Below are positions 3,112 to 5,831 of a stretch of DNA of 50,973 nucleotides, one piece after another. The number at the start of each line of letters is the position of its first letter. Positions within the stretch are counted from its first letter, which is position 1. Made by a program: the position numbers and the translations under genes. The notes beneath the pieces were generated by a model. That model had not been told where the DNA came from. It saw only the letters and a program-made list of their open reading frames with translations, and ran no database searches. This DNA comes from Candidatus Pelagibacter sp. (GTDB lineage Bacteria; Pseudomonadota; Alphaproteobacteria; Pelagibacterales; Pelagibacteraceae), in contig NZIO01000040.1 in assembly GCA_002689925.1 (NCBI GenBank), forward strand, positions 1 through 50,973, written 5' to 3'.

Positions 3112-4926
3112 TTAAGACTTCGTTCTTCTCTTTCTTTCATGTGGATCTAGATATTTTTTTCTCAGTCTTAAGTTTTTAGGTGTTACTTCTAATACTTCAT
3201 CATCATTTATATAAGCCATTTTTTCCTCAAGACTCATTTGACGAGGAGGGGTTAAGACAACATTTTCATCTGTTCCTTGAGTTCTCATATTTGTTAGTTT
3301 TTTACCCTTTAAAAAATTTACCTCTAAATCATTATCTTTGTTATGTTCACCACAAATCATTCCTTTATAAACTTCAGTATTGTGTCCTATAAACATCTCA
3401 CCTCTTTCTTGTAAATTAAAGATTGCAAATGCAACTGCTGGACCAGTTTCCATTGAAATTAAAGTTCCATTGACTCTTCCAGTTATACCTTCTTTAAAAA
3501 GACCATAGGAATGAAAAGTTCTATTCATTACGCCAGTACCACGAGTTTGGGTCATAAATCTTGATTGATAACCAATTAGCCCACGTGAAGCAGCATGAAA
3601 TATTAGACGAGTTTTACCAGCTCCAGCATCAATCATATTAATCATTTCGGCTCTACGTTTATTCATATTATCTATAATTTTAGAAGAAAATTCAGCATCC
3701 AAATCTATAGTTACTTCTTCTATTGGCTCAGTTTTATTACCATCAGCATCTGTTTTAAAAATAACTTGTGGGCGAGAAACTGTAAGTTCAAATCCTTCTC
3801 TTCTCATTGTTTCTACTAATACGCCTAATTGTAATTCACCTCGTCCGCTAATTTGAAATGAATCTTTATTATTATTTTCTGAAAAGCTTATACCAACATT
3901 ATTTTCATCTTCATTAAGCAAACGTTCTCTAATTTGCGTAGAAGTTAATTTTGTACCATCTATCCCTGCTAGAGGTGAAGAATTTACACTTATGCTAATT
4001 GACATCGTGGGTGGGTCAATAGGAGTGCTTGGTAAAGGTTTTTCAACCGTAAGATCACAAATAGTGTCAGCAACTGTTGCTTTAGTTAATCCAGCAATGA
4101 TAACAATATCGCCCGCCACTACTTTTTCAACAGGAACCTTTTTTGTTCCTTCGAATCTTAAAAGCTTAGTAAGTCTACCCGCATCAACTTTTTGACCATC
4201 CAAGTTAATTGCTTTTACATTTTGATTTATTTGTGCAGTACCTTGTCCCACACGTCCAACTAAACACCTTCCTAAAAAACTATCTGCATAAAGAAGAGTA
4301 GAAAGCATAGCAAATGGTTTGTCAGCTTCTACTTTTGGAGCAGGAACATGATTTAATATTAAGTCTAATAAACTATGTAAATTTTCTTTAGGTTGATCTA
4401 ATTCTTTTACAGCCCAACCGTCACGTCCTGAGGCATAAAGAATTGGAAAATCTAATTGTTCATCTGAAGCCCCTAAAGCAACAAATAAATCAAAAACTTC
4501 ATCAATAATTTCTTTTGGTCTTGCATCTTTTCTATCAATCTTATTTATTATAACTATAGGCTTAAGTCCTTGTGCCAAGGCTTTTTTCATTACAAAGCTT
4601 GTTCCTGGTAGACACCCTTCTGCTGCATCAGTCAAGAGTATTACTCCATCTGCCATATCTAAAACCCTTTCTACTTCACTAGAAAAATCAGAGTGCCCTG
4701 GAGTATCAATTATATTAATTCTGGTTTCTTTCCATTTTATTGAAGCAGGTTTGGCAAGAATGGTTATTCCTCTTTCTTTTTCTAAATCCCCACTATCCAT
4801 TATCCTTTCTTCAATTTGTTGATTATCACGCCACAGACCACTTTGTTTCATGATGGAATCTATAAGGGTAGTTTTTCCATGATCTACATGAGCAACAATA
4901 GCTATATTTCTAATTTTTTGTGACAT
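3112..4926 (-). CDS. typA: Ribosome-associated translational GTPase TypA/BipA
   Basis: This 604-residue elongation-factor-like GTPase binds the ribosome and aids 50S assembly and stress or cold adaptation. The G1 motif AHVDHGKT is at residues 12-19. RGITI, DTPGHSDF and NKID follow, then the domain-III/V blocks and the BipA-specific C-terminal domain (GPAVAFAIFNLQERG, LTNMRTQGTDENV). The start is ATG at 4926 (MSQKIRNIAIVAH). A possible TTG at 4962 would add 12 residues that do not resemble the family. It lies 50 bases downstream of tRNA-fMet and rpsU on the same strand. Confidence 0.96.
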   Translation of the reverse strand: MSQKIRNIAIVAHVDHGKTTLIDSIMKQSGLWRDNQQIEERIMDSGDLEKERGITILAKPASIKWKETRINIIDTPGHSDFSSEVERVLDMADGVILLTDAAEGCLPGTSFVMKKALAQGLKPIVIINKIDRKDARPKEIIDEVFDLFVALGASDEQLDFPILYASGRDGWAVKELDQPKENLHSLLDLILNHVPAPKVEADKPFAMLSTLLYADSFLGRCLVGRVGQGTAQINQNVKAINLDGQKVDAGRLTKLLRFEGTKKVPVEKVVAGDIVIIAGLTKATVADTICDLTVEKPLPSTPIDPPTMSISISVNSSPLAGIDGTKLTSTQIRERLLNEDENNVGISFSENNNKDSFQISGRGELQLGVLVETMRREGFELTVSRPQVIFKTDADGNKTEPIEEVTIDLDAEFSSKIIDNMNKRRAEMINMIDAGAGKTRLIFHAASRGLIGYQSRFMTQTRGTGVMNRTFHSYGLFKEGITGRVNGTLISMETGPAVAFAIFNLQERGEMFIGHNTEVYKGMICGEHNKDNDLEVNFLKGKKLTNMRTQGTDENVVLTPPRQMSLEEKMAYINDDEVLEVTPKNLRLRKKYLDPHERKRRTKS

Positions 4927-4976
4927 ATCTATAAATATTTTTTTATTAATTTTAAAAAACAAATTCCAAACTTAAT

Positions 4977-5053
<77 letters not shown>

Positions 5054-5078
5054 ATAATTAAAATTTAGATAATATCGT

Positions 5079-5276
5079 TTAAAGACTTCTATTTCTAATT
5101 TTTTGAAGTTTTTTTGATCTTTTAATGTTTTCTGATTTAACTCTTTTTTTTCTTTCAGAAGGTTTTTCATAGTTACTTTTAAGTTTTATAACTTTAAAAA
5201 AACCATCCTTCTGAAGTTTTCTTTTGAGAATTCTCAGAGCTTGATCAACATTGTTATCTTTTACTTCTATCTTAAT
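5079..5276 (-). CDS. rpsU: 30S ribosomal protein S21 (bS21) with apparent ATT start codon
   Basis: This 65-residue basic protein sits on the 30S platform near the anti-Shine-Dalgarno. The sequence contains DNNVDQALRILKRKLQKDG followed by YEKPSERKKRVK, a clear match to the alphaproteobacterial S21 pattern. The frame has no ATG, GTG or TTG at its beginning. An in-frame TAG lies just upstream, and the only codons between it and the conserved body are GAG GTA ATT ATT. The second ATT (5276-5274) aligns with the usual first Met and lies 5 bases after a perfect AGGAGG (5287-5282). I take ATT as the start. A base error changing ATG to ATT is the alternative. Confidence 0.85.
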   Translation of the reverse strand: MKIEVKDNNVDQALRILKRKLQKDGFFKVIKLKSNYEKPSERKKRVKSENIKRSKKLQKIRNRSL

Positions 5277-5281
5277 AATTA

Positions 5282-5287
5282 CCTCCT
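5282..5287 (-). promoter_or_regulatory. Perfect Shine-Dalgarno AGGAGG of rpsU
   Basis: The minus strand reads GTAGGAGGTAATTATTAAG, so AGGAGG ends 5 bases before the ATT that aligns with the S21 first residue. Most gene starts in this window have weak or no visible Shine-Dalgarno, so a full six-base match here is conspicuous and decides the start. Strong ribosome binding paired with a poor start codon would suit autoregulation by S21 or by initiation factors. That is inference. Confidence 0.8.
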
Positions 5288-5339
5288 ACGGTGAGACTAC
5301 GTAACACTAATAAAAATAATTGTCCACCATGTTTAGTGG

Positions 5340-5831
5340 TTAATAAGGCTTTTTGGGTACTTTTTTTTCAAAATCTTTTCTATATTTGATTAATCTTTTT
5401 AATATGTTTGGATATCTAGTAGATAGTATTGAAACAGCTAATAAAGCAGCATTCACTGCCCCAGCTTTACCAATTGCAAGAGTTCCAACTGGTATTCCAC
5501 TTGGCATTTGAACTGTTGAAAGCAAGCTATCAAGACCTTTTAATTTACTTTCAGTAGGTACTCCTAGTACAGGTATGGTTGTTAAAGATGCTGTTACTCC
5601 TGCTAGGTGTGCTGACATTCCTGCGGCAGCAATTATTACTTCCATTTTATTTTTTTCAGCTTCTTTAAGAAATTTATGTAATCTTTTAGGTGTTCTGTGA
5701 GCAGAAATCACTCTTACATCATGTTTAACTCCAAATTGTTTTAAAGTAGCACTACAATGTTCCATAACATTAGCCCAGTCTGATTTACTACCCATTATAA
5801 TACCAACCAATTTAGAATTTTTATCTTTCAT
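5340..5831 (-). CDS. purE: N5-carboxyaminoimidazole ribonucleotide mutase (PurE)
   Basis: PurE interconverts N5-CAIR and CAIR in purine synthesis. The length of 163 residues is normal for class I PurE. GSKSD (14-18) is the substrate/phosphate loop, SAHRTP (about 43-48) carries the catalytic His45, and AAAGMSAHLAGVTAS and GVPTESKLKGLDSLLSTVQMP follow in the usual order. It lies 6 bases behind trcR. PurK, which makes its substrate, is not in the window. Confidence 0.95.
   Translation of the reverse strand: MKDKNSKLVGIIMGSKSDWANVMEHCSATLKQFGVKHDVRVISAHRTPKRLHKFLKEAEKNKMEVIIAAAGMSAHLAGVTASLTTIPVLGVPTESKLKGLDSLLSTVQMPSGIPVGTLAIGKAGAVNAALLAVSILSTRYPNILKRLIKYRKDFEKKVPKKPY

Follow-up and report, generated by a model that had tools for sequence, protein, structure and literature searches.

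What starts the gene for ribosomal protein bS21 in SAR11 bacteria, and why would a ribosomal protein gene open with a codon that ribosomes discriminate against? The question is raised by a stretch of Candidatus Pelagibacter DNA of 50,973 nucleotides (the whole of which is called the window here), in which rpsU, on the minus strand at 5079–5276, has 65 codons and a stop but no opening ATG, GTG or TTG. A list of open reading frames (ORFs) restricted to those three starts omits the gene, bearing out an earlier suggestion that gene callers would miss it; in practice they would either miss it or mis-start it. bS21 adjoins the tail of 16S rRNA, the part of the small subunit that recognizes the Shine–Dalgarno (SD) sequence.

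The start codon of rpsU

The product is identified as bS21 by a PF01165 profile score of 58.2 bits versus a curated cut-off of 27. On the minus strand, the 5′ end of the gene reads TAG-GAG-GTA-ATT-ATT-AAG-ATA-GAA, with an in-frame TAG at 5288–5286, AGGAGG at 5287–5282, a 5-base spacer, ATT at 5276–5274 and, at the far end, the stop TAA at 5081–5079. The preceding codon is also ATT and lies only 2 nt from AGGAGG, but alignment of relatives sets the start at 5276. As a control for chance, a rule was applied that demanded GGAGG or AGGAG, a distance of 4–9 nt, a near-cognate codon, an ORF of at least 40 codons and no NUG nearby; it matched rpsU alone on both strands of the 51-kb window, and two further ORFs when 400 kb from a complete SAR11 genome were scanned.

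For comparison, rpsU loci were gathered from complete genomes, metagenome-assembled genomes and single-cell genomes of the Pelagibacteraceae, the family that supplies the window's nearest named loci, many of them from single-cell genomes. After removal of identical loci, 206 remained, and the codon at the Met position was ATT in 191, ATG in seven, ACG in five and ATC in three, counts that come from loci sharing descent and are thus not independent trials. Two SAR11 genomes that are 95–99 % complete (G011 and G031) gave no rpsU match in a protein search, which may reflect loss, divergence or an assembly gap. ATA was found at the start position in none of the 206 loci, although it makes up 43 % of the Ile codons inside these genes (ATT 52 %, ATC 5 %) and occupies the adjacent Ile codon 3 in 147 of 156. 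Because ATA never occurs at the Met position despite being common internally, while ACG and ATG do occur there, the codon is read as a start rather than as isoleucine; every codon found at the position is AUG or one base away from it. Furthermore, the spacer between GGAGG and the start codon is 4, 5, 6 or 9 nt long, so the upstream frame is not kept and conservation of frame begins at this codon.

A sequence-only reading of the window had proposed an ATT start behind a perfect SD, with an upstream stop and no NUG before the conserved body, and had named ATG in relatives as the sign of an assembly error. The start, the SD and the upstream stop are confirmed in the window, and that sign of error is not borne out: the alignment of SAR11 rpsU 5′ ends that the reading called for places ATT, ATC or ACG in 199 of 206 distinct loci, with the SD kept in every one of those 199. 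A true start elsewhere or a faulty sequence is hardly credible, since the TTG found 12 nt upstream in about half of SAR11 loci, inside TTTTTGGAGG, overlaps the SD and is missing from the remainder, dozens of loci (the window included) have an upstream stop and no upstream NUG, a downstream NUG is wholly absent from 48 of 149 loci, and some 200 loci from separate assemblies concur; both readings were discarded on these grounds. AUU is therefore read, from comparative evidence and with near certainty, as the start codon of SAR11 rpsU.

An extended Shine–Dalgarno in an SD-poor genome

The 3′ end of SAR11 16S rRNA, read in two complete relatives, is GGATTACCTCCTTTCT, with the antiSD intact. A search of SAR11 for GGATCACCTCCTT gave no match because the tail there reads GGATTACCTCC; the 16S was masked in two genomes. 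The extended SD of the window, AGGAGGTAAT (5278–5287, minus strand), is complementary over 10 nt to the 16S 3′ end ATTACCTCCT and forms a 10-bp duplex with the tail. At −13.3 kcal/mol, it is stronger than the best candidate start of any of the 49 ORFs of at least 100 aa in the window; in the relative G009, the SD of rpsU, also −13.3 kcal/mol, surpasses those of all 389 ORFs of at least 100 aa in 400 kb. Such signals are scarce in SAR11: −6 kcal/mol or lower is attained by 8–15 % of ORFs (in G009, by about 15 % of first-ATG starts), genome-wide figures that rest on mechanical ORF calls in the window and in 400 kb of one complete genome.

Strength of the SD and identity of the start codon change together. 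All 199 non-AUG SAR11 rpsU genes carry an SD, the weakest at −6.9 kcal/mol, and all seven AUG genes lack one, the best value among them being −3.3 kcal/mol; the median energies are −11.4 kcal/mol for ATT, −12.4 for ACG, −11.9 for ATC and +1.4 for ATG. On a tree of 123 loci, computed from some 1.7 kb of flanking sequence that they have in common (SD and start codon masked), ATG was gained twice, once from ATT (L018, L061, L062 and L237) and once within a grade of ACG starters (L019, L240 and L245). The starred branches of the tree force these two changes, and the SD is absent both times. Thus, the linkage holds without exception in 206 loci, but the independent events are few, namely two. Judged by this pattern, strong SD and poor codon would form one co-evolved module in SAR11 rpsU, which looks like a selected control setting.

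Poor starts across the Alphaproteobacteria

A wider survey covered 128 genomes from 98 other alphaproteobacterial families, in which the rpsU start was scored as GTG in 65, TTG in 26, ATG in 17, ATC in 13, ATA in three and CTG in three, with one case left unscored. One ATC case (L158) was discounted for an ATG two codons upstream, and several other ATC or ATA cases have an in-frame NUG further upstream, often within the SD. Hence, about 15 alphaproteobacterial genomes appear to use AUC or AUA at rpsU, a reading drawn from alignment and SD position. The candidate AUC and AUA starts mostly precede GTN and come from about a dozen families outside SAR11 (L091–L190 and L301–L360). In the sister family of SAR11, the site reads AAGGAGGGCAGAACA-ATA-GTC. 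In the control gene rpsO, the aligned Met is encoded by ATG in 29 genomes out of 30, and the exception, L408, has ATG two codons upstream. On these predicted starts, poor initiation codons at rpsU are a trend of the whole class, and SAR11 is an extreme case of it. The trade-off with SD strength is established for SAR11 only, since across the class the SDs of AUC/AUA starters are not stronger than those of NUG starters (Mann–Whitney p = 0.86). Among alphaproteobacterial rpsU genes that do start with AUG, a very strong SD is frequent outside SAR11 (median −17 kcal/mol), and a strong SD with AUG is therefore not universally shunned.

Promoter, leader and the neighbouring initiator tRNA

Upstream of rpsU, on the minus strand, lie a −35 element, TGGACA (5321–5326), conserved as TRGACW in 206 of 206 SAR11 loci, and an extended −10 element, TG-T-TACGTA (5298–5306), whose TG-N-TA holds a fixed position in all 206. 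The full arrangement (TRGACW, 17 nt or in one locus 18, then TA with the TG extension) is common to every locus and was satisfied by one of 206 shuffled upstream sequences. This promoter (5298–5326) is stricter than expected of an ordinary sigma-70 promoter and may have regulation of its own. The median distance from promoter end to start codon in the 206 loci is 21 nt, from which we infer that transcription begins about 7 nt past the −10 element, leaving a leader of roughly 15 nt in which the SD sits close to the 5′ end. A leader of that length would leave little space for a riboswitch, and an Rfam scan of 4900–5500 returned a tRNA only, two other matches falling far below the gathering score.

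That tRNA, found by ARAGORN at 4977–5053 on the minus strand, 25 nt downstream of rpsU, has a CAT anticodon and is taken here to be the initiator tRNA-Met on its resemblance to E. coli tRNA-fMet, including C1:A72. Of 187 SAR11 loci, 182 have an CTCATAAC anticodon loop no more than 400 nt downstream of rpsU, and the tRNA mostly begins 3–7 nt past the rpsU stop, a proximity that implies a shared transcript; rpsU and tRNA-fMet are probably co-transcribed. The same link was seen in one of 30 loci of the sister family and in none of 30 other alphaproteobacterial loci. As a separate observation, A29-U41 replaces the first of the three anticodon-stem G-C pairs in the SAR11 initiator (window 4977–5053 and 200 related loci), giving a stem-loop of TCAGG-CTCATAA-CCTGA or CAAGG-CTCATAA-CCTTG. 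These three pairs are tied to initiator selection.

bS21 genes of pelagiphages

A phage contig in the same bin (C47; 41,965 bp) carries an S21 gene, and an IMG/VR viral contig, also of 41,965 bp, encodes a near-identical protein. In C47 and its viral-contig relatives, AGGAGG or AGGGGG is followed by TAATTGTTATA, the conserved body is not preceded by any NUG, and the start is probably GTT or ATA. Viral contigs L416–L434, and L001 at 1447–1470, carry pelagiphage-like bS21 genes that lack a NUG start and whose SD, GGAGGTAATTGTTATA, resembles that of the host. Among cultured pelagiphages, Kolga and Mosig share AGGAGGTAAT with the host gene, just as the C47 type shares its lack of a NUG start, but unlike host rpsU they place it before ATG (Kolga) or TTG (Mosig), and HTVC008M bS21 starts with ATG and has no SD. 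The bin holds a third S21 gene (L003, on contig C51 of G000), which opens with an ordinary ATG, is longer by about 20 residues at the N-terminus and is possibly phage-borne.

How the start site may work

Two known systems frame the interpretation. In the Flavobacteriales, most genes lack an SD, whereas rpsU, which is autoregulated, carries an extended one, and in F. johnsoniae ribosomes without bS21 translate the extended-SD rpsU mRNA better (PMC9976891). SAR11 resembles this system in its unusually long SD, SD-poor genome and intact 16S antiSD, and differs in adding a near-cognate start and in that its autoregulation is putative. The parallel with Bacteroidetes rpsU drawn in the sequence-only reading holds for the anatomy of the site. 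Tyr54 of Bacteroidia bS21 stacks on A1534 and redirects, or helps to sequester, the 16S tail. With its position located by carrying the profile alignment on to 7jil, a comparison of bS21 alone, across eight diverse SAR11 proteins, found no aromatic residue at the corresponding C-terminal sites. This absence argues against an identical pocket for tail sequestration.

The second system is infC, autoregulated through its AUU start in E. coli and starting with ATC in Streptomyces, where the underlying principle is that IF3 destabilizes initiation at near-cognate codons (PMC5472188). Like infC, SAR11 rpsU is a gene of the translation machinery with a lineage-conserved AUU or AUC start; unlike infC, it encodes bS21 rather than the discriminating factor, and it also uses ACG. 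A further precedent is Streptomyces sigR, which starts with GTC and is repressed by IF3 (PMC5472188). There too a near-cognate start limits output and is misannotated by gene callers, but the gene is unrelated and the purpose is the ratio of sigma to antisigma.

SAR11 rpsU is translated from a near-cognate AUU behind a strong SD. In the mechanism proposed here, this module would mean that rpsU, in contrast to most SAR11 genes, needs a free 16S tail for its translation and is affected by the way IF3 and initiator tRNA discriminate among start codons. 30S subunits lacking S21, with their accessible 16S tail and laxer initiation, would initiate best on rpsU, and S21 would be produced when subunits need it; the discrimination by IF3 and the feedback by S21 are the parts that we infer. 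We regard SD-dependent, start-codon-discriminated initiation, by which the output of S21 would follow the condition of the 30S subunit through such feedback, as the most probable account, with about an even chance of being right. Two SAR11 lineages have dropped the module for AUG without SD, and feedback through it must therefore be dispensable, a loss that fits a dosage set-point as well as it fits feedback.

The set-point account, the chief competitor, which we consider possible though doubtful, does without feedback: AUU with a strong SD would yield roughly the moderate output of AUG without one, and selection would prevent over-production of S21. Ribosomal proteins are needed in fixed amounts, and both gains of ATG accompany loss of the SD, as they should if what counts is the overall strength of initiation; for this joint switch, a simple dosage set-point fits almost as well as coupling to 30S state. 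Nevertheless, it leaves unexplained why the strongest SD is paired family-wide with a near-cognate codon in an SD-poor genome where AUG without SD is the default, and why AUG is avoided at rpsU across the class.

Homeostasis of IF3 as in infC, by which AUU would place rpsU in the IF3-repressed set and S21 would track the ratio of IF3 to 30S, gains from the use elsewhere of IF3-repressed AUU and AUC starts by infC (PMC5472188) and from the sister family, where an ATA or ATC preceded by an SD appears to open infC as well as rpsU. It is nonetheless unlikely, because infC in SAR11 starts with GTG or ATG, not AUU, and the defining loop of E. coli is not kept. The infC parallel in the sequence-only reading accordingly survives as to a real AUU start on rpsU, while a simple copy of infC control is disfavoured. 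With regard to infC itself (L191–L219), the SAR11 GTG sits directly after a stop codon, and the sister-family gene appears to start with ATA (ATC in L215) behind AAGGAG. A neutral leftover, i.e. an ancestral poor start buffered by its SD and free of selection, would account for inheritance of the state, as the sister family and other Alphaproteobacteria are also non-AUG, but is most improbable given that ATG is one mutation away and yet was gained only twice on the 123-locus tree, with none in the other sampled loci, and that the SD was lost both times.

Coupling to 30S state can be carried a step further, into a proposal that we put forward tentatively and think unlikely to hold in all its parts. 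Here, rpsU would be a state-sensing module that 30S subunits translate efficiently only when their antiSD is accessible and they are at the same time permissive at the start codon, such that bS21 would report its own occupancy together with initiation fidelity. It would share one transcript with tRNA-fMet, exist in an AUC/AUA version in many Alphaproteobacteria, and have its SD imitated by the bS21 genes of pelagiphages.

Significance

SAR11 bacteria are among the most abundant in the ocean, and their rpsU combines two known themes, the AUU of infC and the extended rpsU SD of the Flavobacteriales. No earlier report of a near-cognate start at SAR11 rpsU was found in the open-access literature. 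In practical terms, automatic annotation may miss or mis-start bS21 in many genomes, and the two natural switches to AUG without SD are ready-made test pairs. A conserved near-cognate start on a ribosomal protein gene would add a new example of control through the start codon, and control of initiation specific to rpsU would extend from the Bacteroidota to the Alphaproteobacteria.
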